Numbered from the stretch's first letter, positions 6,298 through 37,055 are shown. The stretch is 64,000 nucleotides of DNA from Oscillospiraceae bacterium (GCA_015068655.1 SVKC01000001.1:1-64000); one strand, 5' to 3'. Program-made: numbers and translations. The notes: a model not told the origin generated them from the letters alone.

Positions 6298-8172
6298 TTA
6301 TCCTTTTTTGAATTTGATTACACAAGCATCAAAGGGTTCAACCGATTCTTCATTTCCTTTGTATATTTTTTTCATCTTGTAGCCATCTTTCACCTTTAAG
6401 TCCAAGTTTTGTTTCTCCTCTGAGTGGTTGATAATAACCGCATAACAATCATCTTTCTCCCAATGATTTGTTATGCACAAGTATGGATTTTTTGATGTTA
6501 CGATATGGTCTTTTTTGCACGCCCTCAACAGCTCATCATAAATCAAATATGCTGAATCCGAAAATGCATCAAAACCATCCATCTTGTCTTTTTCCAAAGG
6601 AGCATTCAGGAAATATACCTTTCCTTTTCCGTAAGAATGAGCCGACAGAACAACATTTCCAACCTTGTCATAAGACAACACCTCTGCACCTGCCGCCCGT
6701 GTCTCGTACCTCCTGGAGGTTTTAACTTTGTAATCAACGCCCTTGAAGTTGAACTCTATCGTTTCGGGAGTGTTGGCAGAATCAACAATTTCCACGCCCA
6801 CAAAGTCCTTAAACCCCTGTATAAAAGCACTGTTGTTTGACATATAAAGTACAGCACCATTCTTCACCTTGTCACGAAGTTCATAGAACTTCAAAGTTGG
6901 ATAATCCCTTGCTATACAAGGCAAAATATAGGTTTCAGCATCAGGCAATTCATCATTGCAATAGGCAAATTTAATATTGATTTTTGCCTGCTTCGCCAGA
7001 ATATACGCAGAAAACGCAACTCCCCAGCTGTCCCATTGCTCATAACCGCAAGGAATAATACAAACCGCATCGATTATTGCCGAAGGAAGCCTGAAATCAA
7101 GAGACTTCAAGAACTTCGAAAAATCCTTCATTTTTTTCAGGTATGCCTTTGGCTTTCTGTCAGCAGAAATCATCCCCAGCTCAACCTCAAGCATCTGCCA
7201 CGTGTATGGCGGTGTTTTCAGCTCATTTTGTTCGTTTGCACACCACCACAGCAAGCCCATATTTCCGTTCGCCCAATTCGAATAGAGATTCACATTCATA
7301 TAATCCGCCGCAGTCTCATCATTACAGAGAGAGTTTCCCAAAGTTCCTATTTCCTCCACAAAACACGGCTTTTTTGAAAGATCCCCGTAATACCTTGTCT
7401 CCGCTGTGCCATGAAGGGTGGCACGTATAGATTTGAAATAATCGTTTGAGGAATGAGGATGAAAAAGAGTGTATGGATGGGTTGTCATTATGTCAAGATT
7501 TTCGGCATGTTCCTGCAAATTCCACGCCGTTTTTGTTCTGTCAGGTCCAAGACTTGCCATCCCCGAAATTACAGGTCTTGTGCTGTCCGCCGCCTTAATT
7601 GCATTTGTTATGATATAAGTCCAGTTTGTACTCACATCACAAGGCTCAACACCATCAACAAGCGGAATTTGCGACAAGCAGTTACATTCGTTACCCAGAT
7701 TCCACGCATATATATTTTCCTTTGCCTTGAATCTTGACACAAAGCCCTTGATGAATTTCTGTTCAAACATCAGCGCAACAGGGTCTGTAAACAAATTCTT
7801 GTCATTCAGTGCCTCCGGTATAAAAATTCTACCGCTCATCCAACCTGTTATCAGACCCACAATCAGCTTCATATTATATTCACGGCAAATATCGCAAAAC
7901 TTGTCAAACCTGTCCATCATATCAGTATCAAGATAATACGGATTGTCCGGTAGCTTGTCCTTGTTCACGCGGTATTCCTTGAACACCCCTGCCCAGCCGT
8001 ACATTTTCACCACCGGCTGAAAGTCTCTCCAAATTGGAAAAACACGCAAGTATTCAACACCGTTTTCCGACAATATAGCTAAATCCTCACGGATTGCGGC
8101 TTCGTCAAAATCTATCCACATCTCGGTTCCCGCATTGGATGCCCAGTAATTGCAGCCTAACATAAACTCCAT
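6298..8172 (-). CDS. GH5-like (beta-mannanase/cellulase superfamily) glycoside hydrolase
   Basis: TIM-barrel glycosidase features: GVEYLRVFPIW, YAWNLGNECN (acid/base NE), CFVEEIG (nucleophile-type E). Confidence 0.75.
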   Translation of the reverse strand: MEFMLGCNYWASNAGTEMWIDFDEAAIREDLAILSENGVEYLRVFPIWRDFQPVVKMYGWAGVFKEYRVNKDKLPDNPYYLDTDMMDRFDKFCDICREYNMKLIVGLITGWMSGRIFIPEALNDKNLFTDPVALMFEQKFIKGFVSRFKAKENIYAWNLGNECNCLSQIPLVDGVEPCDVSTNWTYIITNAIKAADSTRPVISGMASLGPDRTKTAWNLQEHAENLDIMTTHPYTLFHPHSSNDYFKSIRATLHGTAETRYYGDLSKKPCFVEEIGTLGNSLCNDETAADYMNVNLYSNWANGNMGLLWWCANEQNELKTPPYTWQMLEVELGMISADRKPKAYLKKMKDFSKFLKSLDFRLPSAIIDAVCIIPCGYEQWDSWGVAFSAYILAKQAKINIKFAYCNDELPDAETYILPCIARDYPTLKFYELRDKVKNGAVLYMSNNSAFIQGFKDFVGVEIVDSANTPETIEFNFKGVDYKVKTSRRYETRAAGAEVLSYDKVGNVVLSAHSYGKGKVYFLNAPLEKDKMDGFDAFSDSAYLIYDELLRACKKDHIVTSKNPYLCITNHWEKDDCYAVIINHSEEKQNLDLKVKDGYKMKKIYKGNEESVEPFDACVIKFKKG

Positions 8173-8195
8173 AAATAACTCCTCCTTTCAACCAC

Positions 8196-9500
8196 TTATT
8201 TCAGGAAAATCTCAATAACCGGCACAAGTGTGTTTGGTTTGAGTACAGGAATATTCATAACAACAGAACCACTGAGGTCTGTATCATACTGGTCAGTAAG
8301 ATACACAGCATCCTCTTCAGAATATAAGATTTCACTTGCATCATGCAGGAACTGTGCATAGTCAATCTTGCCCGCAAGTCCCGGAAGTTCAAGAAAACGG
8401 AAGGGATATTCGAACAGATGAACATAAAGTCTCTTTCCGTCCTCACTCTGTGTATATTTGCAACCGCTTGGAGCCTTGAATTCTGGTTCTGCCATTGTAC
8501 AACCATAGATTGAACGGCTATTGTACTTCATCCATTCGCCAAAAGCTTCAAGAGCTTCTGTTGCTCGATAGTCAAAATAACCTCTTGCCGTCGGTCCTAC
8601 ATTCAGCAGCAGATTTCCGCCGAGAGATACTGTGCTGACAAGCATACGGATAAGCATATCATGAGACTTCCACGAGGTTTCGTCTCTGCTGTAACCCCAC
8701 GAACCCGAAAAAGTCTGGCAGGCTTCCCACACAACAAGCTCGCCTGTTTCTCTGTGAGTTGGCCAAAATGTGGGCTGGAACTGTTCAGGTGTCCACAAAT
8801 CCTGTTCCAGATCCGCTCTATTATCAATTATGATACCGGGTTGAAGTTCTCTCACCCTTTTGATAACTTTTTCAGTCTGCCACACTTCTTTGCCCTTGCC
8901 CTGCCATTTTCCTTCACCGTCATAGGAGAAGTCAAACCACAAAATATCAATTTTTCCGTAATTGGTCATAAGCTCCTCTACCTGATTATAGAGATACTCC
9001 GAATATTTGGTTATATCTCGTGTTTTGTTCAGTTCTTCAGCATTTTCCGCTGTATTATACGGATGAAACTTGTCAATTGTAAAATCAGGATGATGCCAGT
9101 CAATCAGCGAGTAATAAAGCCCGACCTTCAACCCTTCAGCACGGAAAGCATCAACAAATTCTCTCACAAGGTCACGGCCAAATGGAGTGTTTGTTATTTT
9201 GTAATCCGTGTATGCCGAGTCAAACATACAAAACCCCTCATGATGCTTTGTTGTGAGAATTGCATACTTCATACCTGCTTTTTTCGCCTGACGTGCCCAA
9301 TCTTTTGCATCAAACATATCAGGGTTGAAATACTTTATGTACCGCTGATCATAATCCTCATCAGTCATATGCTCTCTGCCCTTTGTCCACTCATGACGTG
9401 CGCACATAGCATACATTCCGTAATGAATAAACATACCAAACCTGTCATGAACAAACCATGCTGTATCTCCAGGTGTTTTTCTTGTTACATAACTTGACAT
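8196..9500 (-). CDS. Alpha-L-fucosidase, GH29
   Basis: FGMFIHYGMYA, AKKAGMKYAILTTKHHEGFCMFDS, KIDILWFDFSYDGEGKW. Confidence 0.9.
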   Translation of the reverse strand: MSSYVTRKTPGDTAWFVHDRFGMFIHYGMYAMCARHEWTKGREHMTDEDYDQRYIKYFNPDMFDAKDWARQAKKAGMKYAILTTKHHEGFCMFDSAYTDYKITNTPFGRDLVREFVDAFRAEGLKVGLYYSLIDWHHPDFTIDKFHPYNTAENAEELNKTRDITKYSEYLYNQVEELMTNYGKIDILWFDFSYDGEGKWQGKGKEVWQTEKVIKRVRELQPGIIIDNRADLEQDLWTPEQFQPTFWPTHRETGELVVWEACQTFSGSWGYSRDETSWKSHDMLIRMLVSTVSLGGNLLLNVGPTARGYFDYRATEALEAFGEWMKYNSRSIYGCTMAEPEFKAPSGCKYTQSEDGKRLYVHLFEYPFRFLELPGLAGKIDYAQFLHDASEILYSEEDAVYLTDQYDTDLSGSVVMNIPVLKPNTLVPVIEIFLK

Positions 9501-9521: not shown

Positions 9522-11978
9522 TTACGCTTCTCCGAGCATATTTGTTTCTTGTAAGCTGCAATTTCTATATATAAATGTCTTCACTTCAAATACACCAAAT
9601 GACAATTCAGCATTAATGTCCTTGAATCTAAGTCTTGTTTTCTGTCCCTTTTCTGTAGCATTGTATAGTCTCAACAAAAATTCCTCATTCCCCATAGGTC
9701 TGCAAGCGGTCATAATAACATTTCTGTTATCAAGTTCCAACATACTCTTGGGTTTTTCACCTTCTCCACCGGTAAAAAATGATAGTGCAACGGGAGGCTG
9801 ATTGAACACCAGTGCATCTGCATCTACACATTCTTGCTTGCTGACCGTAATTCTGAATGAACTTATTCTCTCCCCCATATCAATATGTTCCTTGAATCTT
9901 TCAGGCTCACTCAACTGGCGTCCGGGGATAGTCAATGCCGAATACACGGGCGTACGCAAAAGTGTGAGTTTCACGGAATTATCCTTACAGCTTCCGGCAT
10001 AAGTTCCGTTATTAATCACAGCAACCTCGGTTTCTCCTTCTCTAAGTGAACACCACTGATGGAAAACAACCTCTTCACCATTATCAAGCATTTTTTGCGT
10101 ACCAAAAGCAGTCTGACCGTGGAATCCGCTCTTTTCAAGACAGGTATCCACACAATACTTGTATGCACGGTTAACATCATTGGAGAGCATTGTTATCTTG
10201 ACATCAATGTGTTCATGATTTTTCGGAACAGTATATTCAACCACAGCAAAACTTCTGTCATATTTGAAGAACGACTGAACAACCGCTCTCACCTCGCCGT
10301 TTTCAATAACACGAACACTACCGAATTTCTCGTCGGAATAACCCACAAAAGCATCAGCTTCGTTATCCGGCATAAGCTCCATTTTGCCAATTATATTTTC
10401 ATAGCTCTGGGCATATGTTCCCCACGCATCCTCGTCATCCTGAATAACAAGAATTTTCCCTGAATTTTTCAGAAATTCCTTTCCATCAACCGTATAACTT
10501 TCAATAAGACCGGTTTTCTTGCTTATTTTCACAACACCACAACTGTTTTCAATGGTGATTAGGTTTTCATTCACATCAACGGGTGCAATAAGACTCGTCT
10601 TTTCCTGAAGCTTCAATCTGCAATTGAAACGTGCTATACTACAGGGCGGAATAGATGCCGAAAAAGTTATATGTTTTCGCCAATCGAGATTTATGGAGCT
10701 TTCAGGAGTAATGGTTTGGGACGGAAGTCTTCTTCCATTCTCATCATAAACCTCTGCAACAGTATACTCATTTTCGTTCCAGTTCTGTGATGCAAGGGTG
10801 AATTCTGCATCAAGGTCACATTCTATCGAATAGGGATGGGGATTGTATGCAATAATGGGAATTTCTCCATCCTTTGGCCGCTTCTGTCCTGAACAAAGTG
10901 CAAAAAAGCTCTTTGTTATCAACTTGTCTGCAACAGCAATACCGCCTCCAAGTCTGCGTATTGTATCGTCCTCTGCCTTCTTGATACAGCTTCCGGGAAG
11001 AATATCGTGGAACTGACAAAACATAAGCTCCTTCTTGGCTCTTTCAAGCTCTTTTCCGGGTTCTAATCCATATTCAATGCCTGCATGAGCAGAAATCTTT
11101 TCACAAAAATCAATCTTATTTTCCAGTTCTCTGTGAAGCTTTTTGATGCGTACCATAGATGTATAACATCCCGTCAAAGTGTGTTCAATAGAAGTATCCC
11201 TCTCAGGCAGAGTTTCTTTGCTGATTTCCGATATAAAGCTTTCAGGTGTTGACTGAACAATTTCAAGGTCATCTCTCTCCTTGATTATCTCCGCTACACC
11301 TTCCATATCAGGAATTGATGCACCGCCGCCATGGTTGCCTATACCCCAAAGCACTGCACCTGTTTTTATAGGATTGGTACCTTCAGGCGGATTATCCACG
11401 AACTCATCTATGAAGTTTTTAATTTTGTTCTTTGCTGCACCTCGGAGTGTAGCATAAGCACGGTACAGTATATGTGCTGTAACAGAGCTTCCGTCAAAAC
11501 CAATCCACTTGAAGGTGTGGTGATTTGGACCTATTCTTCTGACCATATAACCATCAAAGCCCGTCTTGTTCAAAATCTGAACAAGCCCCCTTGTGTGACC
11601 GAAAGAGTCAACACTCATAGCAACTGTTGGACGTACTCCAAACTTCTCATCAAAATACTTTCTTCCTTCTTCAATCTGACGCACCAAGGATTCACCGCTG
11701 AGCATCTGGGTATCGGGCTGGAGATACCAGCCACCCATAATATGCCAGTTTTCTTTCTTCACTTGCTCCTGAATTCTCGCAAAAAGTGCAGGTTCATACT
11801 CCTCAATCCATTCATAAAGAAGTGCCTCATTGTGATTAAAGATAAAGCCGTCATATTTTTCACAAAATTCAACCGCCGTTCTGAAGGTGGAAACCGCCTC
11901 TGCAGCCCCTTCGTGCCAAGTCCACAACCACACGGGGTCAATATGAGCATTACATATAAGATGAATTTTCGTTTTCAT
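9522..11978 (-). CDS. Alpha-mannosidase, GH38
   Basis: HIDPVWLWTWHEG and MSVDSFGHTRGLVQIL (GH38 zinc/nucleophile motifs); full-length 818 aa. Confidence 0.92.
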   Translation of the reverse strand: MKTKIHLICNAHIDPVWLWTWHEGAAEAVSTFRTAVEFCEKYDGFIFNHNEALLYEWIEEYEPALFARIQEQVKKENWHIMGGWYLQPDTQMLSGESLVRQIEEGRKYFDEKFGVRPTVAMSVDSFGHTRGLVQILNKTGFDGYMVRRIGPNHHTFKWIGFDGSSVTAHILYRAYATLRGAAKNKIKNFIDEFVDNPPEGTNPIKTGAVLWGIGNHGGGASIPDMEGVAEIIKERDDLEIVQSTPESFISEISKETLPERDTSIEHTLTGCYTSMVRIKKLHRELENKIDFCEKISAHAGIEYGLEPGKELERAKKELMFCQFHDILPGSCIKKAEDDTIRRLGGGIAVADKLITKSFFALCSGQKRPKDGEIPIIAYNPHPYSIECDLDAEFTLASQNWNENEYTVAEVYDENGRRLPSQTITPESSINLDWRKHITFSASIPPCSIARFNCRLKLQEKTSLIAPVDVNENLITIENSCGVVKISKKTGLIESYTVDGKEFLKNSGKILVIQDDEDAWGTYAQSYENIIGKMELMPDNEADAFVGYSDEKFGSVRVIENGEVRAVVQSFFKYDRSFAVVEYTVPKNHEHIDVKITMLSNDVNRAYKYCVDTCLEKSGFHGQTAFGTQKMLDNGEEVVFHQWCSLREGETEVAVINNGTYAGSCKDNSVKLTLLRTPVYSALTIPGRQLSEPERFKEHIDMGERISSFRITVSKQECVDADALVFNQPPVALSFFTGGEGEKPKSMLELDNRNVIMTACRPMGNEEFLLRLYNATEKGQKTRLRFKDINAELSFGVFEVKTFIYRNCSLQETNMLGEA

Positions 11979-11992: not shown

Positions 11993-13228
11993 CTACACTA
12001 AATCAGCACAAGCAACACGAACACAATAATCCATACCATAATCATAACCCGAAAAGTTCACCCTCATGTTTCCGTTTTCACTTGTGAAATCAAGCTTTTC
12101 ACCGTTATCCATCCAATGAAGATTTTCTATTTTCAGGTCACAGTTTTCAAAAATGAAATCACCTTCGCTTCCCGAAAGATAGGTTACGTTTGCCGAGCCC
12201 TTGCGGAGCAAGTCAAAGCAGAAGATATAAGCCTTCTTGTCGCTCTTCATAATAAAGTTCTTCACATCAAGGCTGTACCAATAGGGTCTTCCTTCATAAA
12301 TTGCTTCTCCGAACAAACCCATCCATTTTCCGATTACTTCAAGCATCGCATTGGGGAAAGAGGGAATATGCCCCATGGCATCAGGACCCACGTTGAACAG
12401 ATAGTTTGCACCTGCACCACGGTTACGGCAAAGAGCCTCAATAATCGTCTTTGGTGATTTGAAGTTTATGTCATCTGCTATACCCCAGTGCATATTCACA
12501 CTGTCGCACACCTCTGCCGCAAGATATTTCTTCTGTCCTTCACGGTCAAGAGGAAATGCCTTGCCTCTTTCAAAGGTAACGGAGTCAATTTCTTCATATG
12601 CGCTTCCTTCACCATGCTTACTGAGCCCCGTGTTGTTTATAATCATTGCATCGGGCTGCAAGCTTCTTATCATTCCGTAGAGCTTGTCTTCCTGCCAAAC
12701 ATCCCCTTGCTTACTCCAGTTTCCGTCAAACCACACACCACCGATTTTTCCGTAATTTGTGCACAGAATTTTCACGCTTTCTCTCAGATATTCAAGGTAC
12801 TTTTCAAAATCCCCCTCAAAGTCCGGATGCCACCAGTCAAAGGTTGTGTGATAAAGGAACGGAACAATATCGTATTTGCGGCACGCATCAACGAACTCAC
12901 GAATCAAATCCCTGCCCGCTGCGCTGTGCATCACGTCAAAATCGCTCAACCCACAGGTGTCATAAAGAGAAAAACCATCGTGATGTCTTGTGGTGAGGGT
13001 TATGTACTTTGCTCCCGACTTGCTTATGTCAGCAACCATTTTTTCCATCGAATCAGGGTTAAACTTTTCTGTCAGTTTCCTATACTCGTCTGTATCTATT
13101 TTATCCTTCAGAATGTGTGCCGCCCATTCGCCTCTCTCCAAAAAGGAATAAAGTCCGAAATGAACAAACACTCCAAAGCCAAGTTTTTCAAAGTCCTTTA
13201 TATATTGTTTTGCTACCGGTATACTCAT
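11993..13228 (-). CDS. Alpha-L-fucosidase, GH29
   Basis: FGVFVHFGLYS, SGAKYITLTTRHHDGFSLYDT, KIGGVWFDGNWSKQGD. Confidence 0.88.
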   Translation of the reverse strand: MSIPVAKQYIKDFEKLGFGVFVHFGLYSFLERGEWAAHILKDKIDTDEYRKLTEKFNPDSMEKMVADISKSGAKYITLTTRHHDGFSLYDTCGLSDFDVMHSAAGRDLIREFVDACRKYDIVPFLYHTTFDWWHPDFEGDFEKYLEYLRESVKILCTNYGKIGGVWFDGNWSKQGDVWQEDKLYGMIRSLQPDAMIINNTGLSKHGEGSAYEEIDSVTFERGKAFPLDREGQKKYLAAEVCDSVNMHWGIADDINFKSPKTIIEALCRNRGAGANYLFNVGPDAMGHIPSFPNAMLEVIGKWMGLFGEAIYEGRPYWYSLDVKNFIMKSDKKAYIFCFDLLRKGSANVTYLSGSEGDFIFENCDLKIENLHWMDNGEKLDFTSENGNMRVNFSGYDYGMDYCVRVACADLV

Positions 13229-13282: not shown

Positions 13283-15853
13283 TTAATCTTTTATTATGTA
13301 CATATACAAAATAATTGCATTTCTTGACATATAAACAAATTTATCGCCTTTTTCCACATCTGCAATTGAACCTGATTTTACAGTGATACCGCCTCTGCCA
13401 ACATCAACAACAGCAACTCTTGTTGAGCCGTAAGCTCCAAAAATAATATGCTCTGTTTCGTTGTTGTGACACATCTTCACCTTGATTGAATTGCTCATTT
13501 TCTTTGTGACTTCAGCCGAAATAACCCTGTTTTTTGCAGTAAAGCCTGTTTCAGTATTTGCTTCAACCCGATGCCCCTCGTCAATTGAGGTATCGGGGTT
13601 ATCAGCATAATTGTAGCGCTTTGCAAGAGTTGCCATCTCGCCATTCGGCGACAGGTCAAAGTTGATTATGTCGCCCTCTTTGATTTGACCTGATTCAAAC
13701 ATTTCAACAAGGTCCTCATCCGTCACTGGAATTTCCTGCACAGTTGCAGCCAAAGCAACTTTAACTGTGAATACGTCCTCATCATCTTTAAGAGACTTTG
13801 AAATTTCAAGCACCAAATAGGGAGCATCAGATGAAACAATAGTCTTATCAAGGGATGCCCCCGAATCACGCCATACCCCCGCTGTTGCATAGTCGTAATT
13901 ACTGTCGGTTTTATATGCTGTCAATCCATAGATATTGTTACCGGCTATATACTGAGGTGTTGTAAGGTCAAAATCCTCGTAACAGGTCAGGTCATCAGGA
14001 ATAATAAATATACTTGACGTTGCCTCAAAAGCAAATTTATTTCCCACAGTGTAATGATAAACCGGCTGATAATACATTGCAGCTCCTGCACTTCTGTTGG
14101 GCGTGTGTCCTTCAATAAACAGTCTATCAGTTTCATCATTATCTTCACTTTCAGCAAGAGCAGTCTCATACTCAACAAGCTTGCCGTCATCGTTTGTGCG
14201 GAAACGCACAAGCTGAGCTTCAACCGAACCATCCTCTGCCAAAACAGGCTCAAGAATCTTTTCAGCCGTTTTTTCACTTTCGCCATTTACTCGCACTGCG
14301 TTTGCACAATCAACACGCTTGTGTTCCCCATCAAAAATTGCCACGCTTACTACATCACCGAAAACTCCTGTTTCAGCAGCGGCATAAAGATAACCAAGCT
14401 TCATATCTGTTCTTCCCGTAGCACGGAAACCCGCTATGCTACCCGACGGGTCAAGATAAGCACTTATGTTCATTCCAACAGAAAGCTTGTTTCCGTCAAC
14501 GCACTTGGGAGAAACTCTGTACTCCTTGCCATCCATTTCAACGGCTGTATATTTCTTTCTGTCCCACATTTTCGAGATACGACCGGAAGCTGTATCAGCA
14601 GAAATCAAAACTGTTGCATAGCGTTCATCAAGGCTTTTTGCCACCCAGAGAATACCGCCCGGTATAAGGGAGGTTATCTGCATTGCCTTGTAGTCTGCAT
14701 CATATATATCATATTCATCAGTTTTTTCTGTATCAAGAAGCACATTGCCCTTGCTGTCCAATATTCCCGTATCGGTTGCACCGCCACTTATGGCAGATGC
14801 ATAATCCATTATAATCAATACATCATATCCACTTGTGTCATCATAATCAAGCAGGGTTATTTCCCCCACCTCAGGAACAAGCTGCTTCTCATTCAATTTT
14901 GAAAGACTTGTTGCAACAGAGTTATAAATTACACTTACATTACCACTAAGCTGTGCTTTTTTGCTGTTGCTGTTCCTTGTATAAAAGTATGCCTTGTCCG
15001 AATATTCGTCTATCTCAAAGCTTTCCAGATACAATTCCTTGCATTTGTTGCTTTTTTCAATCCAGACAAGTATATTTTCTCCATCCTTGCTGCGATAATA
15101 GCACTCAACACCATATCCCAGATAGAACTCCGCATCCGTATTGCCGGTTTTCAGAACAAAATCATCATCCAGACGGATTCTTCCTTCACCGACACCTGAT
15201 GCATCATACAGCGAGCTCCGACAGTTTGCTGTTACTCTGCCTGTATAGTTGTACACATCGTGATAAGCTTCAAGCAAGGTTTTACCCTTGGTTATGTCAG
15301 CAGAAACACCGATTGTTGAATATTCAGTAATTTCAACAACGTCTGCCATAAGCATATGGTAAAGCATTTCACCAAACTCATTGCCCGTAACATTGGCATT
15401 TGCAGACTTGTTTATTCCTTTTCCTATTCCCAGAAGATTCGCTTTGTTCATCATTCCCTCAAGGCTTGCCTTTCCGCCTACAATTGTTATATCATATCCG
15501 AGTGTATAAACAATTCCCGAAAGCACCTCGCCATATGTAACCAGAGTGTCAAGACCTGCCTTGCCGTCATCATACACACCAATTAGCTTTGTCTCTCTTG
15601 CCATTTCGGACAAAGAATCATCCGAAACATTTTCATTTGCATCAATATATCTTCCTATGCACAAAAGTGCCTCCGCATACTCACGTCTCGTCACATAACT
15701 GTCCGAAAAGTTATGGAAAAAGCCCAGTGCCTCAACAAGAGACTGACCCTTCGCCCCGGGTACAAAGCTGTCTTCTGCTGATGCTGTGTATATGCCCGAA
15801 AGAATCATTGCCAAACACAGAACCAGACAAGTTATTCTTTTCAAATTTCTCAT
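13283..15853 (-). CDS. Secreted protein with N-terminal SLH-like region
   Basis: Signal peptide (ITCLVLCLAMILSGIYTASA), SLH-like repeats (VTRREYAEALLCIGRYID, LVTYGEVLSGIVYTLGY). Confidence 0.65.
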   Translation of the reverse strand: MRNLKRITCLVLCLAMILSGIYTASAEDSFVPGAKGQSLVEALGFFHNFSDSYVTRREYAEALLCIGRYIDANENVSDDSLSEMARETKLIGVYDDGKAGLDTLVTYGEVLSGIVYTLGYDITIVGGKASLEGMMNKANLLGIGKGINKSANANVTGNEFGEMLYHMLMADVVEITEYSTIGVSADITKGKTLLEAYHDVYNYTGRVTANCRSSLYDASGVGEGRIRLDDDFVLKTGNTDAEFYLGYGVECYYRSKDGENILVWIEKSNKCKELYLESFEIDEYSDKAYFYTRNSNSKKAQLSGNVSVIYNSVATSLSKLNEKQLVPEVGEITLLDYDDTSGYDVLIIMDYASAISGGATDTGILDSKGNVLLDTEKTDEYDIYDADYKAMQITSLIPGGILWVAKSLDERYATVLISADTASGRISKMWDRKKYTAVEMDGKEYRVSPKCVDGNKLSVGMNISAYLDPSGSIAGFRATGRTDMKLGYLYAAAETGVFGDVVSVAIFDGEHKRVDCANAVRVNGESEKTAEKILEPVLAEDGSVEAQLVRFRTNDDGKLVEYETALAESEDNDETDRLFIEGHTPNRSAGAAMYYQPVYHYTVGNKFAFEATSSIFIIPDDLTCYEDFDLTTPQYIAGNNIYGLTAYKTDSNYDYATAGVWRDSGASLDKTIVSSDAPYLVLEISKSLKDDEDVFTVKVALAATVQEIPVTDEDLVEMFESGQIKEGDIINFDLSPNGEMATLAKRYNYADNPDTSIDEGHRVEANTETGFTAKNRVISAEVTKKMSNSIKVKMCHNNETEHIIFGAYGSTRVAVVDVGRGGITVKSGSIADVEKGDKFVYMSRNAIILYMYIIKD

Positions 15854-26952: not shown

Positions 26953-28395
26953 TTACTTATTTTTGTTAGCAATAAATTCATCAATCTGTTTCTGTACCTC
27001 TGCCATAACTTTTTCAAGCCCAGCGCTCTTGAGCTTTTCCACAAACTCTTTGTGCAGCTTCTCATAATCCTCAGCACCATAAACAAGATAATCAAATTCC
27101 TTTTCAACAGCCGATAGGTTTGCAATTTCAGTCTTGATATTATCTGTGTTAAGTTCAAATCCGTCAAGGAACATAACCTTTGCCCTTCTGTTCAGTTCAT
27201 CAGCCTGCTGCCAAAGACCCTTTTCCTGTCCTTCGATGTAGTAAGAATTGAACTGGCTACCGAAAGCAAAACCGTTTGTTGTAGCGTATCCGCCGTCGGG
27301 TATAATTCTTACAGTTTCATCATCTATCTTCTCATAGTGCTTTCCTTCGATACCGAAGTAAATAAGATTGTAAAGGTCTTTGTCTTCATTGAGTAACTTC
27401 ACAAGCTGCAAAGCTTCCTTTGGATGCTTGCTTGTTCTTGAAACAGCTGTCATTGTTGCTCTTGCGCCATTATTGCTGAGTACAGGCTCTTTAAGAAGAG
27501 GAATTTCAATAATTTCTTCACCGTATTGGTCTTTGAGATTTGCAGCTGTACCTGCACCTGCCTGAACTCTCCAGCATCCGTATTTGATTGTATTTGTCTG
27601 TTCTTCTCCTGCCGCACTTACAACGTCGGGACGGATATAGCCTTTTTTGTAGTAATCACGAACCAATGCCAGCTTCTGCTCATATTCGTCTGTTTCATAA
27701 ATTGAATAAACCTTTCCGTCAGCATCAGCATCTATTACGCCAACAGCAGGAGCACCTGTTCCAAAATAAATCCATGTCTGGAGGTTGAATCCAATTGGAT
27801 TGAGAGGATAAAGATTAGGTTCGTTCTTCTTTATCTGTTCAAAATACGGCTCCAAATCCTGAAGCTCTTCAACCGCTTCAACATCAACATTGTATTTTTC
27901 CGCAAGGCGCTTCGGAATTGCCGCAGCCTCATAGTATGTATAGCTCTGGTAATTTGGAACAGCCATAACTTTTCCGTTTATACGGGCAGAATTCCATGTA
28001 TACTCAGGAATCGAGTTGTAAAAATCCTGTTCTTCTGCCAAAAGGTCATCCAAAGCATAGAAAGCACCGTTTTTTGCATTCTTCAGAAAATCGTTTGACC
28101 AGCTTGATGTAAAGCACAGATCAAATTCCTCACCCGATGAAATAATCATATTCATTTTTTCTGCATATACACCTGTGTCAATAACCTGAATATCTACAGT
28201 GAAACCAAGCTTTTCCTTCACACGCTTGTTGAACTCCGTCATCACTGTTTCCATATCTCTCTGCTTATTTCCGAGAACGTACCAAAGAAGCTTCGTTTCA
28301 CCTGCTTCTTCCTTCTTTTCACCTCCGCAGCCTGCCAGTGACAGCATCAAAACAACCGCCAATACTGTCGCCAATAATCTCTTACCAAATTTCAT
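26953..28395 (-). CDS. ABC transporter solute-binding lipoprotein (oligosaccharide)
   Basis: Lipobox LSLAGC, SBP-type sequence, followed operon-style after two permeases. Confidence 0.88.
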   Translation of the reverse strand: MKFGKRLLATVLAVVLMLSLAGCGGEKKEEAGETKLLWYVLGNKQRDMETVMTEFNKRVKEKLGFTVDIQVIDTGVYAEKMNMIISSGEEFDLCFTSSWSNDFLKNAKNGAFYALDDLLAEEQDFYNSIPEYTWNSARINGKVMAVPNYQSYTYYEAAAIPKRLAEKYNVDVEAVEELQDLEPYFEQIKKNEPNLYPLNPIGFNLQTWIYFGTGAPAVGVIDADADGKVYSIYETDEYEQKLALVRDYYKKGYIRPDVVSAAGEEQTNTIKYGCWRVQAGAGTAANLKDQYGEEIIEIPLLKEPVLSNNGARATMTAVSRTSKHPKEALQLVKLLNEDKDLYNLIYFGIEGKHYEKIDDETVRIIPDGGYATTNGFAFGSQFNSYYIEGQEKGLWQQADELNRRAKVMFLDGFELNTDNIKTEIANLSAVEKEFDYLVYGAEDYEKLHKEFVEKLKSAGLEKVMAEVQKQIDEFIANKNK

Positions 28396-28436: not shown

Positions 28437-29309
28437 TTACCCTTTTACCGAACCAACCGTAAGTCCCTTTGCAAAATACTTCTGGAAGAAGGGGAATACC
28501 AGTATCATAGGTCCTGACACAACAACCGCCAAAGCCATTCGCACTGACTCGGTGGGAACATCCACATTCATCATCTGCATTGGCATATTGCTCATCTGTG
28601 TCTTTATGAGCTCAACATTCTTCATAATTCTCTGGAGCTGATATTGAAGAGTTACCAGGTTCTCGTCATTGATATAAAGAAGACAGGTGTACCAGTCATT
28701 CCATCTGGTAAGTGCCCCCAAAAGCGCAACCGTCGCAAAAACCGGTTTGGAAAGGGGAAGCACAACCTGAAAAATCATTCTCACATCGCTGCATCCGTCA
28801 ATCTTCGCTGCATCAAACAGCTCACCCGGAAGCTGTTGAAAGAAGGTTCTGAACAAAATTACGTGGAATGGTGTCACAAGCCCCGGAAGAACAAGCACCC
28901 AGAAGTTGTCCTTGAGATACAGATACTGAGTAATAAGCATATAGCTCGGAACAAGACCTCCCGAAAAAAGCATAGTGAAAAATACGTAAAATGAAACTAC
29001 TGACTTAAACTTGAAATCCTGTCTTGACAAGGGATATGCCAGGAACGACATAACCAACACCGCAAGAACTGTTCCAACGACCGTACTTGCAATAGTCACA
29101 CCATATGAGCGTATAATCGGTTCCGGATCCAAAAATATGTATTTGTAAGCATCAAGACTGAAGGTTTTTGGAAAAATACTGTATCCGAATTCATTGAGTG
29201 TTGCCTCATCCGTAAGGGAAACAGAAACAACAACTATGAACGGTATCAAACAAAGAATCGATGCCAGAATTAGCCAAATATGTGAGATAATACTTTTTTC
29301 TTTTTTCAT
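28437..29309 (-). CDS. Carbohydrate ABC transporter permease (LplC/YtcP-like)
   Basis: EAA-loop type GCSDVRMIFQVVLPLSKPVFATVALL, PFFQKYFAKGLTVGSVKG C-terminus. Confidence 0.9.
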   Translation of the reverse strand: MKKEKSIISHIWLILASILCLIPFIVVVSVSLTDEATLNEFGYSIFPKTFSLDAYKYIFLDPEPIIRSYGVTIASTVVGTVLAVLVMSFLAYPLSRQDFKFKSVVSFYVFFTMLFSGGLVPSYMLITQYLYLKDNFWVLVLPGLVTPFHVILFRTFFQQLPGELFDAAKIDGCSDVRMIFQVVLPLSKPVFATVALLGALTRWNDWYTCLLYINDENLVTLQYQLQRIMKNVELIKTQMSNMPMQMMNVDVPTESVRMALAVVVSGPMILVFPFFQKYFAKGLTVGSVKG

Positions 29310-29326: not shown

Positions 29327-30232
29327 TTAGAATAATGCGTTGTCCTTCTCTATTCTTCTTACAATCCAGTTCACCAAAACGATAGTAATGAAACCTACAA
29401 TAGACTGGAAGAATCCAACCGCTGCCGACATACCTATTTCACCGTTTGTGTTCAATGCTCTGAATATGTAAGTATCAATAACATCTGTGGTCTCATAAAG
29501 CTTTCCTATATCTCTTGTGACCTGATAGAACAAACCAAAATCAGAACGGAAAACATTGCCCAATGCCAACAATGTCATTGTTATTATCAAAGGAATAATC
29601 GACGGAATTGAAATATGCCATATTTTCTGTAACCTTGATGCTCCGTCAAGATCTGCCGCTTCGAAAAGCGAATCATCAATACCCATAAGTCCGGCATAAT
29701 AAATTATGCAGTTTATTCCCACGTTCTTCCACACAGAAAAGAAGCCAAGTATAAAGGGCCAGTACTTTGGCTTTGCGTACCAGTCAATCATATCAACACC
29801 GAATTTTTCCAAAATTCCGTTTATAATACCTGCTGTCGGGTTCAAAAAGCCATAAGCCATACAGCCAACAACAACCCATGACAAGAAGTAAGGAAGCATC
29901 ATTGTGGTTTGATATGCTTTTATCATAATCCGTTGTCTTATGTTGTAGAGCATAAGAGCAAACAGAACAGCTACCACTATGCCCAAAATTATGTATGACA
30001 GGTTGAGTGTAATGGTGTTAAAAAGAATTCGCTTTGCATCCTGTCCTGCAAAGAAAAACTCAAAATTTTTGAACCCTACCCACGGGCTTTTCAGAATTCC
30101 CAGGTCATATCGGTAATCTTTGAACGCAATAACCAGGCCTCCTATGGGAATATAACAAAATACAAACAACAACAGAACCCCCGGCAATGCCATGAGGCAA
30201 TACATCAACTGTGTTTTGTTAAACTTCTTCAT
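29327..30232 (-). CDS. Carbohydrate ABC transporter permease (LplB/YteP-like)
   Basis: MALPGVLLLFVFCYIPIGGLVIAFKDY, AADLDGASRLQKIWHISIPSIIPLI. Confidence 0.9.
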   Translation of the reverse strand: MKKFNKTQLMYCLMALPGVLLLFVFCYIPIGGLVIAFKDYRYDLGILKSPWVGFKNFEFFFAGQDAKRILFNTITLNLSYIILGIVVAVLFALMLYNIRQRIMIKAYQTTMMLPYFLSWVVVGCMAYGFLNPTAGIINGILEKFGVDMIDWYAKPKYWPFILGFFSVWKNVGINCIIYYAGLMGIDDSLFEAADLDGASRLQKIWHISIPSIIPLIITMTLLALGNVFRSDFGLFYQVTRDIGKLYETTDVIDTYIFRALNTNGEIGMSAAVGFFQSIVGFITIVLVNWIVRRIEKDNALF

Positions 30233-30272: not shown

Positions 30273-30315
30273 ATTTTATCAAAAAAATAACAACGCAACA
30301 ATTTGCTGCGTTGTC
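30273..30315 (-). promoter_or_regulatory. Terminator/promoter fusion element upstream of lplB-like gene
   Basis: Minus strand: hairpin ACAACGCA...TGCGTTGT + ATTTTTTT; TTGTTG (plus 30296-30301)-17 bp-TAAAAT (plus 30273-30278). Confidence 0.55.
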
Positions 30316-30337: not shown

Positions 30338-31975
30338 TTAGTCTACTGATATTTTCACCTGTATCTTTGTACGTCCCTCTTCATCATATCCAATCTTCAA
30401 GCCATAGCCGTCACCGTATATGAGGTGAAGCCTCTGATTTACGTTGTTCAGACCTATATTGACATCTTCGGTAAACTCATGATTCAGGAACTTTTTGTTG
30501 AGTTCCTCTGCCAGTTTTTTCTCAATTGGTTTTCCGTCATTTGTGATTTCAAAGTATGCATTGCCGCCGTCCATATAGCCCTTTATGTACACTCTTCCGT
30601 CTACGGGCTGGCAACATCTCACCGCATTTTCAACTATGGGCTGAAAAGTCACTTTGGGCACCTTTATGGACATCATATTCTCAGGGATTTCAATAACACA
30701 ATCAAAGGAATCGAAAAGACGTTCCTTCTGTATATCCACATACATTTTCAGGTATTCAATTTCCTCATTCAAAGCAACGGTATGGGTCTTTGTGGAGAAC
30801 GAAAACCTCAGAATTGTTGAAAGCTTCACAAGCATCTCCGCAACCTTTTCCCCATCCTTGCCAAGTCTCTCGGCATACAGACCTATAATCTGCAGAGTGT
30901 TTGAAATAAAATGCGGATTTATCTGGCTTTGAAGTGCAACCATTTGCATCTTGTTCATATTTTCAAGGCTTTTGTCAAGACGTCTTGCGCGGAATACGTG
31001 TCGCGCATTTCCCCTTATATTGTTTCCGATAATTCTTTCATATTCATCAATTCTGGATATTGCGTCTTCCTCATTCATTATGTTCATAACACGTTCAAAG
31101 GGAACATAAATTTTCAGGCACGCAACTGCAGTAAGCACAATCAGGAGAATGAATATAACCAGAACCAGCAAAGCCACACTGGGTGAGAATATGTTCGTTA
31201 TTTTCAGTTCATCGCTTATGTCGGTATAACACACAAGGATATAGCTTTTTTCATTTGTCTTTTCTGTTTTGACAAATCTTTTTCCTTCTGTATCGGACGG
31301 CAAAGTGTCAATCACGGTGTAGCCCAACTCATCTGTCAATTTGAGCCCCAGAAGATTTGCCTGTTTTGCATCAAGAAAGCTCATCAGGTCATCGTAATAA
31401 AGCCCATACACAACAGTTCCGAGAAAAGTCTCGTTGTCCCATATGCCTTCTGTCACAATGAGATATTCTATTCCATTTATTATGTCACGCCTATACATAC
31501 GGTAAGCTTTGTCTGCCCTGACAGCGTCAGAAAGTTCTTCAACATACTGTTTTTCCTCATCTAAGGAGCATTGAAGAACATAATCACTTTGAGCTGCATA
31601 GGTCGCAATAAACGCTCCCATAGAGGATGCCGCAAGAAGCTTGTCTGCCGTGCCGTAAAACTCCGTTACCATATTCCGAAAGGCTGTCATATCCTCGTAT
31701 AACTCTTTTGTGGCAAAAAGATTCTGCACCGCCATGCTTTTTTGAATTTCCTCCATCTGTCTGTCAACGTCAAAAAAGACCTTGTCGGCAAGCACAAGCC
31801 TGTGCGCTGTCGTATCATTTGCCTCAAAGGTTACTCTGTCTATATTCTTTTCCGCAGACAGATTGTATATCAGGAAAATTATTATTATGAACACAATTAC
31901 TGCAGGAACAACAATCATTGCTATATTCGCAAAAAACAGTTTCCTGACTTTTCTGTTCGTTTGATTCATAACCAT
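30338..31975 (-). CDS. YesM-like sensor histidine kinase
   Basis: His_kinase motif MVALQSQINPHFISNTLQIIGLYAE; C-terminal HATPase NVNQRLHLIYGDGYGLKI. Confidence 0.9.
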   Translation of the reverse strand: MVMNQTNRKVRKLFFANIAMIVVPAVIVFIIIIFLIYNLSAEKNIDRVTFEANDTTAHRLVLADKVFFDVDRQMEEIQKSMAVQNLFATKELYEDMTAFRNMVTEFYGTADKLLAASSMGAFIATYAAQSDYVLQCSLDEEKQYVEELSDAVRADKAYRMYRRDIINGIEYLIVTEGIWDNETFLGTVVYGLYYDDLMSFLDAKQANLLGLKLTDELGYTVIDTLPSDTEGKRFVKTEKTNEKSYILVCYTDISDELKITNIFSPSVALLVLVIFILLIVLTAVACLKIYVPFERVMNIMNEEDAISRIDEYERIIGNNIRGNARHVFRARRLDKSLENMNKMQMVALQSQINPHFISNTLQIIGLYAERLGKDGEKVAEMLVKLSTILRFSFSTKTHTVALNEEIEYLKMYVDIQKERLFDSFDCVIEIPENMMSIKVPKVTFQPIVENAVRCCQPVDGRVYIKGYMDGGNAYFEITNDGKPIEKKLAEELNKKFLNHEFTEDVNIGLNNVNQRLHLIYGDGYGLKIGYDEEGRTKIQVKISVD

Positions 31976-31983: not shown

Positions 31984-33108
31984 TTATCGTCTTTTCTTCA
32001 TTCTGTACTCCTTTGGAGTCATTCCTGTATCCTTTTTCAAAATGGAATAAAAATACGGCAAATTTCTCATTCCTACTCTCTCTGCAATTTCGTGTGCAGT
32101 CATATCTGTTCTAACAAGCAAATCCTTTGCCATATCAATACGTTTTTGGAGAATATATGTGCTTATGTTCTCGCCCATGTGCCACTTGAAAAGCCTTGAC
32201 AGCCAAGAGGTTGAAACAAAGCACTCCTTTGCCACCATTTCGAGACTCAAAGGCTCGGAAAGATTGTTTTCTATAAAGTTAACTGCATTGGTAACAACTG
32301 CATTCTCTGCTTTGAACGTACCTTCCGACACCGCAACTTTTTCCGTCTTGTAATACTCTTCGAGCATTCCGATATTATCAAACTGTCTCACGTTCTTGAT
32401 TTCTATGTCCATCCCAAGACAATCCTTCACGCTTGCGATATACTCTTCTGTCCAATTCTCCGCTATTTCTTCCCGGGAAAAAATCAACACCTCATACGCA
32501 ACACCAATGTTTCCAAGAATACAAAACTTCACTTTTTTGTATATGAGTGAGAAAATACTGTACAAGGCACGAAGAAGCTTTTCAGAAGCAATCGTGTCGC
32601 AAATATTCAGTTCAAAAAGGAAGAAGCTGCAGTCATCAAAATCATACATTTCACTACTTATACACTTTCCTGCAAGACCGTTGAAATAACCCTTGTAAAT
32701 AGACGTCTCAGCAAAATTGTTCTTCACCTTCTCAACGTCAAGGTATTCCCTGATTTCCGCAAATTCCTGTTTGAGCTGTTTTATGGTAAGAGGCTTGTTC
32801 AGATAAAAACGTACATTGTAACGCATTCCTTCTTTTGCATAATCAATCTCGTTGAATGCACTCAGGAAAACAATCATCACCGATGACCAGTTTTCATATA
32901 TATACCGACTCAGCTCAATACCGCTCATATCTGGCATTGATATATCAGTTACAACCATATCAACCTGATTTTTCTCTAAAAAGGAAATAGCATCTTTTCC
33001 CGAATAAAAGCTTCCTACACATTCAAAGCCCAATTCTTCCCACTTTATTAATTCACGAAATCCGTCTGCTATTGCCCTTTCATCATCAACCAAAATAAAT
33101 TTATACAT
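31984..33108 (-). CDS. YesN-like AraC-type response regulator
   Basis: REC domain MYKFILVDDERAIADGFRELI...DMVVTDISMPDMSG + C-terminal AraC HTH; start reassigned to MYKF (33108). Confidence 0.9.
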   Translation of the reverse strand: MYKFILVDDERAIADGFRELIKWEELGFECVGSFYSGKDAISFLEKNQVDMVVTDISMPDMSGIELSRYIYENWSSVMIVFLSAFNEIDYAKEGMRYNVRFYLNKPLTIKQLKQEFAEIREYLDVEKVKNNFAETSIYKGYFNGLAGKCISSEMYDFDDCSFFLFELNICDTIASEKLLRALYSIFSLIYKKVKFCILGNIGVAYEVLIFSREEIAENWTEEYIASVKDCLGMDIEIKNVRQFDNIGMLEEYYKTEKVAVSEGTFKAENAVVTNAVNFIENNLSEPLSLEMVAKECFVSTSWLSRLFKWHMGENISTYILQKRIDMAKDLLVRTDMTAHEIAERVGMRNLPYFYSILKKDTGMTPKEYRMKKRR

Positions 33109-33228: not shown

Positions 33229-35496
33229 TTAGATAATTACGTCCGTCTCTTTGCCATCAAAGGAAATGAACTTCTTTTCATTTTTTGTAATCGTAATATT
33301 ATAAGTCTTTCCCCTGAAAACTCTCGTAACCTTTGCAGGAAGCATCTCCTTTGGCAAGCACGGGTCAATTTCAAGTCCGTCCCACTTTGCACGGATACCG
33401 AGCATATACTGGGTTACAGCAACATACATCCAAGCCGCAGTTCCCGTAAGCCATGATACATTTGCAAGACCGAACTTGTCACTTTCAGGCCCAAAAATGT
33501 TTGAACAATAAACATAAGGCTCTGCCTTGTATCTCCACTCTCCCGCCTGTGCTTGTGCAACCATAGGGAGAAGCTGATGATAATACTTGTACGCATTTTC
33601 GGGGCGTTTAAGCAAGCACTCTGCAATTACAGCCCATGTGTTTGCATGGCAGAACACACTTCCGTTTTCTCCACAGCCCTTGTTGTACATAGTCAGGTTG
33701 CCGTCTTTTGTTGGATAGTCGGTTGTCATTGAGGGATGTATTTTCTTGATTCCCAAATCGGTATCAAGATACTTTTTCACATTATCCATTGCCTGGGTGC
33801 CGTTGTCACCCATTCCCGAAATAACAGACCAGCTTTGAGTATTGAGCCAGATTTTTGCTTGAGGTTCTTTTTCGCTGCCGATAAATGTACCTTCATCTGT
33901 AATACATCTTCTGTACCATTCGCCATCCCATGCAATTTCGTTTACGAGTTTTTTTTGCTGTTCATATGTTTCAAGATATTTGCTGCCGTCCTCACCTTTA
34001 AGGTCAGCTATTTCCGCAATCTGTCTGAGAACAGTTCCAAACTGCATACTTGTCCAAATGCTTTCGCCCTTGCCCTCACGGCATACCTTGTAGAGCATAT
34101 CGTTCCAGTCCGATGAAAGCATAAGGGGAAATCCGCATTCACCTAGGTTTGCAAGACAGAAATCTATTGACTTCTTTATGTGTTCCCATACAGTTGCACT
34201 TCCTCCGTCATAAAATTCCACAACCTCATCAAGATAGTCAAGCTTTCCTTCTTCAATCACTATATGATAGCAAGCCATAACAAGCCACAAATGATTGTCA
34301 CTGTGGATTCTTGTAACAGGCTCCCACCCTTCGGTAGGGAAGCAATAGTGATTACAATGTCCGTCATTATACTGCTGAGTAAATAAAAGATTTAACTTGT
34401 CCTTTGCACGTCTCAAATCAAATGGTACCATTGCAAGGATGTCCTGCGCCGTATCCCTCACACCCACACCACGGAATGTTCCCGTTGCATAATATGAGAT
34501 ATTTCTCGAAAACTGGAAGTTTCGTTCCGCCTGATAAGGATTCCATATATTTATCATTGTTTCTGCATCCTTATCGGGAATTTTGCATTGGAATTTGCTT
34601 AAATGAGCATCCCATTTTTCTGCGAGACCTTTGAATGATTTTTCAACAAAATCAGTCTTTCTGCAGTTTTCAACACTTTTCCTTATGTCCTCTTCGGTCA
34701 TTGCTGTACCGAGGAAGATATTAACTTCTTTTTCTTCGTTTGCTTTGAGTTCAATTTCAAGCTGAAGTGCAAAGCAAGGGTCACCGCCGTACATGGTTGA
34801 CTTTGAGCAATTTCCCAATTCTACTCTCTGTGGATTTTCCTCACTTCTGTATGCACCCACAAACTCGTCCCTATCGCAATCAAATGCCGTAACCGGAACA
34901 TTTGCCGCAAAATAAACAAGAGGTGTTTCATCGGGCTTTGGCTGTGTTTCAACTCCGTATTTATACACCAGAACATCTTCCATGTTATAGCAGGAAAGCT
35001 GATGCTTGTTATAGCACTGCCATTGAAGTTCACGCATAAACTCCATCATTCCAAGCTCAACATACGGAAACAGCGTTATATGTTTGTCGCTATCCGATTT
35101 CAGCTTTAAATTCCATATAAGTGCGTTTTCATATTCACCCACAAAGTATGTGGCAGTTACCGATACGCCCTTTCGCTCTGCCTCAAAGCGAGTATATCCC
35201 ATACCATGAGTTGACTGCCATTTTTCAGGCTTTGTCTTGCAGGGCTCGTTTGTGGGACACCAGTATTCACCACCGTCCTTTATGTAGGTATAAAATCCGC
35301 TTCTGTCTGTGGGAACATGAAAGAATTTATAATGGTTTATTCTCCATATCTGCGGAGATTTATAAAATGCAACACCGCCCCCTGCCTGCGACATCATTGT
35401 GTGGAATGTGCCGTTTGACAGATAATTCATCCACGGGGTTGGTGTGTTGTATTTTTTAAATGTTATTTCTCGTTTTTGGTTGTTAAAGCTATACAT
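33229..35496 (-). CDS. GH94-family glycoside phosphorylase (cellobiose/chitobiose phosphorylase-like)
   Basis: GVRDTAQDILAMVPFDLRRAKDKL, GWEPVTRIHSDNHLWLVMACYHIV, MYNKGCGENGSVFCHANTWAVIAECLL. Confidence 0.88.
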   Translation of the reverse strand: MYSFNNQKREITFKKYNTPTPWMNYLSNGTFHTMMSQAGGGVAFYKSPQIWRINHYKFFHVPTDRSGFYTYIKDGGEYWCPTNEPCKTKPEKWQSTHGMGYTRFEAERKGVSVTATYFVGEYENALIWNLKLKSDSDKHITLFPYVELGMMEFMRELQWQCYNKHQLSCYNMEDVLVYKYGVETQPKPDETPLVYFAANVPVTAFDCDRDEFVGAYRSEENPQRVELGNCSKSTMYGGDPCFALQLEIELKANEEKEVNIFLGTAMTEEDIRKSVENCRKTDFVEKSFKGLAEKWDAHLSKFQCKIPDKDAETMINIWNPYQAERNFQFSRNISYYATGTFRGVGVRDTAQDILAMVPFDLRRAKDKLNLLFTQQYNDGHCNHYCFPTEGWEPVTRIHSDNHLWLVMACYHIVIEEGKLDYLDEVVEFYDGGSATVWEHIKKSIDFCLANLGECGFPLMLSSDWNDMLYKVCREGKGESIWTSMQFGTVLRQIAEIADLKGEDGSKYLETYEQQKKLVNEIAWDGEWYRRCITDEGTFIGSEKEPQAKIWLNTQSWSVISGMGDNGTQAMDNVKKYLDTDLGIKKIHPSMTTDYPTKDGNLTMYNKGCGENGSVFCHANTWAVIAECLLKRPENAYKYYHQLLPMVAQAQAGEWRYKAEPYVYCSNIFGPESDKFGLANVSWLTGTAAWMYVAVTQYMLGIRAKWDGLEIDPCLPKEMLPAKVTRVFRGKTYNITITKNEKKFISFDGKETDVII

Positions 35497-35507
35497 AGCA
35501 GAACTCC

Positions 35508-37055
35508 TTATATTTTTGTAAGAACAGGCTTTCCTTCAAATTTCATATCCCCCAAAAGCCCGTCAACAAGCAGTTTCACAGTTTCAGGTGTTGGCTGACA
35601 GTTCATTTCTATAAACGTTGGGTCTTCTGGGAAGTAATCAACCGCAAAGTATGGCGAGCCGTAATTCACAATTACTTTCTTATCCTTGTCAAACAAATGG
35701 GATGCCCAGATAAGCATATGAGGAACGCTCCACTGTGCAACAAAGAAGGCGTTAACATTAAATATCACAAGGTCATACTCCGCCTGAAGCTTATCTATAT
35801 CCGCCTGCCAACATACTCTTGATGGTACGTCATAAATATCACGTTTGACCTCCGTCTCTATTCCTCTGCTTTCAAGTTCTTTCCGAAGCAGCTCCGAAGA
35901 GAAATTATCCTCGTCTGTCACATCAACAACAAGAACCTTCTTGTACTTTTCTTTGCTTATTGGAATAATGCTCTTTTCGTTTCGCAAAAGACACATTCCG
36001 TTCTTTGCAATATCAAGCAAAGTCTTGTCAACATATTCAGCATCAGGCTTGTCAAATTTCTTTTCTTCAAGCGCCTTATTACGGAAGTTTTCCATTTTTT
36101 CAATTCTTTCAAGGGCATCATCAAGACGGCTCATAGGTATCTCACCACTCAAAAGCTGCTTTTCTATTTCCTCTGCGGCTTCAACAGGCGGCCACAAAAG
36201 CAAATCCGCCCCTGCCTTGAATGACTGAACAGTTTCAGCAACCAAATCACCCGTTGCCATTCCACCCATAATGAGAGCATCTGTAACCACAGCCCCTTCA
36301 AAGCCAAGGTCATTTTTCAACAAATCGGTTGTAAGCTTTTTGGAAAAAGTTGCGATTGGGTAATAGCCATCTGTAAACTCATCATCATAGGATTTCAGGG
36401 ATATATGGGTTGTCATAACCGACATAACGCCTTCCTTGAACATTTCCTTGTATGTATAGCCATAGGTCTCCATCCACTCATCAAAAGGCAGATTATTAGC
36501 ACCCGGAGCCATATGCATATTCACAAAATACGTTCCAAGTCCCGGAAAGTGCTTAACCGTTGAGCATACACCCTGATCCTGAATACCTCTCACCACCTGA
36601 CGGTATATCTCGCCAATAACTTTGGGGTCATCACTGATTGCTGTAAGGTACATAAGGTGGTCAAAGCACATATCAATGCTCGGGCTGAGCACCCAGTCTA
36701 TTCCCTTGTCGTTCATCTGCATACCAATACATTTGCCCCAATTGTATGCATCCTCAAGGCTTTTGGAACCTCCCAAAGAGGATTGTGGATAAATATTCAC
36801 CTTCTGCCCTCTCACAAATGCTCCGTCTGCACACACAAGAAGCTTCTTTTTGGATGCTTTTTTGCATTTGTTCAAGGTTTCAAAATCGAACTGTGTTCCA
36901 ATCTCCAAACCATTTTCGTCCTTAAGAACATTTGCCTCACCATAATATAATCCACCTACGGGATAATTCTCAAAGAACTTTTCAGGACCTCCGTGTGTGT
37001 TTATCTCACGAATTGTCACGATAAAAGTCTTCAAAATTTTTTCTCTTAATGTCAT
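35508..37055 (-). CDS. GH3-family beta-glycosidase/beta-N-acetylhexosaminidase-like
   Basis: STVKHFPGLGTYFVNMHMAPG, GFEGAVVTDALIMGGMA. Confidence 0.82.
   Translation of the reverse strand: MTLREKILKTFIVTIREINTHGGPEKFFENYPVGGLYYGEANVLKDENGLEIGTQFDFETLNKCKKASKKKLLVCADGAFVRGQKVNIYPQSSLGGSKSLEDAYNWGKCIGMQMNDKGIDWVLSPSIDMCFDHLMYLTAISDDPKVIGEIYRQVVRGIQDQGVCSTVKHFPGLGTYFVNMHMAPGANNLPFDEWMETYGYTYKEMFKEGVMSVMTTHISLKSYDDEFTDGYYPIATFSKKLTTDLLKNDLGFEGAVVTDALIMGGMATGDLVAETVQSFKAGADLLLWPPVEAAEEIEKQLLSGEIPMSRLDDALERIEKMENFRNKALEEKKFDKPDAEYVDKTLLDIAKNGMCLLRNEKSIIPISKEKYKKVLVVDVTDEDNFSSELLRKELESRGIETEVKRDIYDVPSRVCWQADIDKLQAEYDLVIFNVNAFFVAQWSVPHMLIWASHLFDKDKKVIVNYGSPYFAVDYFPEDPTFIEMNCQPTPETVKLLVDGLLGDMKFEGKPVLTKI

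Follow-up and report, generated by a model that had tools for sequence, protein, structure and literature searches.

The gene array between positions 6298 and 37055 of the window, the whole 64,000-nucleotide stretch of Oscillospiraceae DNA analysed here, is read as a Gram-positive PUL of a gut Clostridia bacterium serving a fucosylated, probably mannose-containing glycan, a reading to which we give a probability of roughly 0.6. Fucose is the best-supported component of the substrate and mannose comes next. The locus itself is real and mostly of an ordinary kind, made of known gene families with a few new parts. The reading draws on the family assignments, on the split between proteins with a signal peptide and glycoside hydrolases (GH) without one, and on the arrangement of the genes in one direction, separated by short gaps and with a terminator-like hairpin between the two halves of the array. 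Additionally, it is supported by the GH141 fold predicted for the secreted protein BH1, by the SLH-U856-GH29b-GH38 gene order kept in another genus, by fucose-related genes in 12 of 77 loci of the GH94 clade and by an L-fucose isomerase found elsewhere in the window's own genome.

Organization and conservation of the locus

The original prediction of a glycan-utilization locus of about 31 kb, with genes almost all on the minus strand, agrees in families, layout, gene order and coordinates with our analysis: all 17 genes are on the minus strand, with intergenic gaps of -4 to about 120 bp. Profile searches with Pfam bore out all the enzyme families of that prediction but GH141, placing two GH29 enzymes, GH38, GH5, GH94 and GH3 above the curated cut-offs, and also recovered the transporter and two-component system that had been attributed to the locus. 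These are a YesN-type response regulator with receiver and AraC HTH domains (31984-33108; Response_reg and HTH_18; the ORF as listed starts at 33177, and its likely start is MYKFILVDDE near 33108), a YesM-type sensor histidine kinase (30338-31975; His_kinase, 4e-21), LplB-type (29327-30232; BPD_transp_1, 6e-14) and LplC-type (28437-29309; BPD_transp_1, 5.4e-10) ABC permeases, and a solute-binding lipoprotein, SBP (26953-28395), with a LAGCGG lipobox, an SBP match (1.6e-9) and a DUF3502 domain. The locus thus brings together carbohydrate-active enzymes, an importer for oligosaccharides and a regulator, as a Gram-positive PUL does.

A Na/Pi symporter gene forms the upstream boundary of the array, and a strong terminator-like hairpin (37133-37101) comes after it. 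The downstream boundary is an AraC gene (5424-6245) convergent with the array, and a hairpin at 6251-6284 lies between the two. A further terminator-like hairpin, a 12-bp stem followed by ATTTTTTT, is found on the minus strand in the gap between the YesM and LplB genes (30289-30315). Two of these hairpins (37133-37101 and 30315-30289) would mark off two putative transcription units, GH3-GH94-YesN-YesM and LplB-LplC-SBP-BH2-BH1-CuAO-Big5-SLH-U856-GH29b-GH38-GH29a-GH5; since the terminator scan overall was not above chance, with a hairpin count no higher than in shuffled sequence, this split is a suggestion based on hairpin positions. A 13-bp G+C-rich minus-strand hairpin (17520-17548) separating the triple-repeat gene from the SLH gene is possibly an internal terminator or an mRNA-stabilising element. 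Scanning the window for tRNAs and Rfam families gave no matches.

Beyond the array, two Gfo/Idh/MocA oxidoreductases and a xylose-isomerase-like TIM-barrel protein (2156-5420) are encoded divergently from the AraC regulator and likely form a separate sugar-catabolism unit. The window also contains a tandem of two M42 peptidase genes with a 17-bp overlap (39268-41302) and a gene for a 554-aa DUF5696 protein with weak GH101 similarity (43073-44737).

A complete orthologous locus was not found among the genomes compared, so the whole gene set has been seen once. In a genome of another genus of the same family (G035) the order SLH-U856-GH29b-GH38 is kept, with GH29b 62-63% and GH38 78% identical, the latter cut by the contig end. 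Ructibacterium gallinarum keeps two GH141-like proteins, SLH, U856, YesN/YesM and GH94 (74%), the last adjoined by a GH31 gene, and the stretch examined there contains no GH38 or GH29. Together, these gene sets make the locus look like modules reshuffled between species. Relatives of GH38 that are 46-50% identical have different surroundings, and this, together with a gene set seen once, counts against the fucosylated-glycan reading.

Secreted proteins and the S-layer pair

Inspection of N-termini indicated signal peptides in U856, SLH, Big5, CuAO, BH1 and BH2, in addition to the lipobox of SBP, and none in GH5, GH29a, GH38, GH29b, GH94 or GH3. Two of the secreted proteins, BH1 (22118-24763, 881 aa) and BH2 (24770-26938, 722 aa; Beta_helix, 3.3e-12), are 32% identical and had been predicted to be GH141-like beta-helix proteins. 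Both look GH141-like and show weak sequence matches to the GH141 alpha-L-fucosidase BT_1002 (5.2e-9 for BH2). For BH1 this judgement comes from the predicted fold and not from a profile score: Pfam GH141_M matched BH1 only and below its cut-off (21.4 versus 27 bits), whereas the BH1 model (mean pLDDT 70) gave BT_1002 as best Foldseek match (E 5e-21; next family 7.6e-11), a fold result obtained for BH1 only. BH1 also has two invariant aspartates, Asp637 and Asp679, 42 residues apart, which may correspond to D523 and D564 of BT_1002. BH1 resembles BT_1002 in its predicted fold and perhaps in its two invariant Asp residues, but differs from it in sequence, with 13-15% identity in structural alignment.

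The LamG repeats of the original prediction proved to be matches to PF06439 (DUF1080 / 3-keto-disaccharide hydrolase) and not to a LamG model. The Big5 gene encodes a secreted triple-repeat protein of 1039 aa (17562-20681) that combines DUF1080-like sequence with Big_5 (6.5e-16); its three near-identical repeats of about 300 aa are spaced by 894-900 bp and are 89-94% identical at the DNA level in 300-nt blocks, pointing to recent duplication or homogenisation. CuAO (20718-22073) is a secreted protein of 451 aa with a Cu-amine-oxidase-N domain (Cu_amine_oxidN1, 3.3e-18) and a weak DUF1080-like part (PF06439 below cut-off). A DUF1080 protein acts as an endo-xanthanase in Thermogutta (PMC10881899), and GH5, two GH38 and GH94 occur together in the xanthan locus of R. 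UCG13, a gut bacterium (review PMC10881899), so that GH5, GH38, GH94 and the PF06439 repeats could be taken as tools for a xanthan-like bacterial exopolysaccharide. We consider such a substrate improbable: PL8, GH88 and carbohydrate esterases were not found in the locus with Pfam, GH5 has no signal peptide, the fucosidases are left unexplained, and GH94 is unlike cellobiose phosphorylases in the region near the acceptor site.

The S-layer pair begins with the SLH gene (15850-17478), whose secreted product carries three SLH domains at its C-terminus (Pfam, 1.2e-29). This gene overlaps by 4 bp the gene of U856 (13283-15853), a secreted protein of 856 aa with no Pfam match. An alignment of 18 members of the U856 family has an SLH consensus at the N-terminus. 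The AlphaFold model (mean pLDDT 77, pTM 0.51) has a helical N-terminus, matched by Foldseek to SLH structures (target-length-normalised TM 0.57-0.69), and an extended beta-rich part that matches chains of OB folds weakly. By predicted fold and relatives' consensus, U856 is an S-layer protein in which SLH domains are joined to many OB-like beta modules in a row.

The pair is widespread. A same-strand gene containing SLH directly precedes 52 of the 67 U856 relatives with a visible neighbour, usually at -8 to +30 bp, and in a few of these 52 the preceding gene is another U856 copy. Members of the family were found in 46 of the 160 Clostridia genera sampled, which rules out restriction to this order. 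GH42, CBM9, CBM4_9, F5/8C, GDSL, GH29, GH3, GH4 and transporter genes are found around SLH/U856 pairs, giving an impression, read from these neighbours, of a possible link to glycan loci. Among the papers listed in our literature search, none was seen to describe an SLH pair in glycan loci; a description may exist elsewhere. As for the surface scaffold of the original prediction, the secreted SLH, Big_5 and Cu-amine-oxidase-N proteins are present and the SLH/U856 pair recurs, and it is their working as a scaffold that we infer.

Cytoplasmic enzymes and the GH94 clade

The signal-less enzymes encoded downstream of U856 belong to three families. GH29b (11993-13228; Pfam 1.2e-54) and GH29a (8196-9500; Pfam 2e-85) are of the alpha-L-fucosidase family, with 8ozu (3e-105) and 6gn6 (1e-112) as closest solved relatives; GH29 sequence clusters have been treated previously (PMC11189522). 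GH38 (9522-11978) is an Ams1-like member of the alpha-mannosidase family, with GH38N (6e-50), mid and C domains and Ams1 as closest solved relative (2e-40). GH5 (6298-8172; Pfam 1.5e-10; LGNE and VEEIG motifs) has only remote solved relatives, the endo-beta-mannanase 7bob as best match and GH5_18 beta-mannosidases. The expected catalytic motifs were found in GH5, GH29a, GH29b, GH38 and GH94, and with one change in GH3. In the same genome there are two more GH29b paralogues (G000:C6 3150-4382 and G000:C23 4730-5962; 54-57% identical) in contexts unlike this locus, and a second cluster (G000:C25, L134 7478-14506) that encodes a large GH38 of 1033 aa together with a GH94-like protein that has diverged to about 25% identity.

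This enzyme set also bears on a (fucosylated) N-glycan core as substrate, in which GH38 and a GH5_18-type beta-mannosidase would act on the mannoses, GH29b/a on the core fucose, and GH3/GH94 would split GlcNAc-GlcNAc. Cytoplasmic GH38 and GH5_18 are the N-glycan gene pair of Cutibacterium and Bifidobacterium (PMC6160142), pneumococcus uses GH38 and GH29 along with an SBP importer for N-glycans (PMC5215778), and here GH5 matches GH5_18 structures and GH3 is NagZ-like. However, the resemblance of GH5 to GH5_18 beta-mannosidases, which act on Man-beta-1,4-GlcNAc, is remote and its best match is an endo-beta-mannanase, and the GH141-like and DUF1080 proteins play no part in the N-glycan loci compared. 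Furthermore, the partners of such loci, an endo-glycosidase (GH85 or GH18) and GH125, do not accompany the array: the own genome has neither GH85 nor GH125, although at 82% completeness this is not proof of absence, and its one GH18 and one GH20 are both on other contigs. We regard the N-glycan core as unlikely, and the fucosylated-glycan reading is preferred.

GH94 (33229-35496, 755 aa) is assigned to the glycoside phosphorylase family by Pfam (1.2e-108, plus the supersandwich domain), and its closest solved relative is the cellobiose phosphorylase 3qde. A scan of genome contigs placed it in a clade of 80 loci at 58-85% identity, most of which come from gut Clostridia and Lachnospiraceae and from Paenibacillus and Saccharibacillus. 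The catalytic Asp and phosphate-binding His, in DWND and FCHANTW motifs, are kept across the clade and shared with the cellobiose, chitobiose and solabiose phosphorylases of the family. The clade is separate from these, and its uniform YNKGCGENG (with close variants) next to the acceptor site stands where cellobiose phosphorylase has YPPGYKENA. The clade probably shares one conserved specificity; our search met with no characterised member. Known GH94 specificities (PMC8741936, PMC8950772, PMC5309861) include a 4-O-beta-glucosyl-galactose phosphorylase, as cited in PMC8950772. Solabiose phosphorylase was tentatively set aside as a candidate, as the acceptor-site positions Thr337 and Trp603 of PBOR_28850 (PMC8741936) are seemingly unmatched by the motifs here, in a comparison by description and not by alignment.

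Within 10 kb of GH94 in 77 loci we found genes for GH141-like proteins (up to 18), GH28 (16), GDSL (12), GH3 homologous to that of the window (11), GH88/105 (10), GH151 (9), L-fucose isomerase (4), GH29 (2) and GH95 (1). GH151, GH29, GH95 or L-fucose isomerase was present in 12 of these 77 loci versus 1 of 60 loci around U856 copies that served for comparison (Fisher p = 0.004, indicative only, because most of the latter belong to different genomes and because related species, each counted separately, do not give independent loci). The predicted fucose- and mannose-containing glycan is accordingly better grounded in its fucose half, with two GH29 in the locus and fucosidases and fucose isomerase beside GH94 relatives, than in its mannose half, which is suggested by family membership of GH38 and GH5 only.

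Other neighbours of GH94 in these loci count against this reading, since GH28, GH88/105 and GDSL genes point to uronic-acid glycans. A plant pectic or mucilage-type polysaccharide with fucose and uronic acids, for which GH141-like enzymes and GH94 would be common tools, is a possible though doubtful substrate; it would fit the GH141 enzyme BT_1002 being the best fold match of BH1 and the many GH94 relatives that originate from herbivore guts, but GH28, GH88/105, polysaccharide lyases and esterases were not found within the locus, and GH38 and GH5 would be left unexplained. The pectic, N-glycan-core and xanthan-like readings are weaker rivals to the fucosylated-glycan one.

The adjoining GH3 (35508-37055, 515 aa; Pfam 1.3e-43) is of NagZ/BglX type, with the BglX beta-glucoside phosphorylase 5vqd as best solved relative (1.2e-35). 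It shares with BglX and NagZ the GH3 N-terminal domain, the KHFPG motif and an intact nucleophile motif (VTDA), but in its acid/base region, KHFPGLGTYFVNMH, Asn179 replaces the Asp of the NagZ-type Asp-x-His dyad and the His is present. KHFPG(L/I)GTxxxNMH is common to 10 of the 11 GH3 relatives beside or near GH94; the eleventh, more distant, has Asp in the dyad, like NagZ-type enzymes and BglX.

Proposed pathway and comparison with known systems

In the fucosylated-glycan reading, YesM/YesN would sense the substrate, and the S-layer-anchored SLH protein and U856, together with the DUF1080/Big_5/Cu-amine-oxidase-N proteins, could hold the glycan at the wall while BH1 and BH2 trim it outside, as the predicted fold would allow. 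The resulting oligosaccharides may be imported through SBP-LplB-LplC, a system whose family is clear and whose substrate is presumed. In the cytoplasm, alpha-fucose would be taken off by GH29a and GH29b and alpha-mannose by GH38, and GH5 would release beta-mannose or a residue like it, the families being assigned and the linkages putative. GH3 and GH94, encoded by adjoining genes, could then break down the beta-linked di- or oligosaccharide that is left, with at least GH94 expected, from its family mechanism, to act by phosphorolysis and release a sugar 1-phosphate.

A bolder proposal, which we put forward very tentatively, is that SLH and U856 make up a two-protein S-layer system general to Clostridia, copied and adapted for each glycan locus so as to capture its glycan at the wall, as a wall-anchored SusCD counterpart, and at the same time that GH94 and the Asn-bearing GH3 both complete the breakdown by phosphorolysis, with a new disaccharide specificity. 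It is poorly understood how complex glycans are kept at the thick wall of Gram-positive gut bacteria, and a recurring S-layer pair next to glycan genes could serve as a marker with which to locate such loci and would offer a concrete test of binding. As the GH94 clade of gut Clostridia and Paenibacillus, probably of a single specificity, is repeatedly found near fucosidases, one assay could annotate many genomes.

The SLH/U856 pair resembles the SusC/SusD pairs of Bacteroidota as a recurring surface protein pair, here apparently beside glycan genes, but consists of wall-anchored SLH proteins with no outer membrane or transporter, so the likeness is an analogy only. With the N-glycan loci of Cutibacterium acnes (GH38/GH5_18/GH20; PMC6160142) and Streptococcus pneumoniae (GH38/GH29/GH92/GH125/GH20 with the NgtS-P1-P2 importer; PMC5215778) the locus shares signal-less GH38, GH29 and GH5 and an SBP importer; unlike them, it is without GH85, GH125, GH92 and GH20, and has GH94 and GH3 instead, as well as GH141-like secreted proteins. 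Lastly, it is like other Gram-positive PULs with YesM/YesN and LplB/LplC/SBP in its co-directional CAZymes, two-component system, cytoplasmic exo-enzymes and ABC importer without an ATPase gene of its own in the locus, and differs from them by the S-layer protein pair and the two GH141-like proteins.
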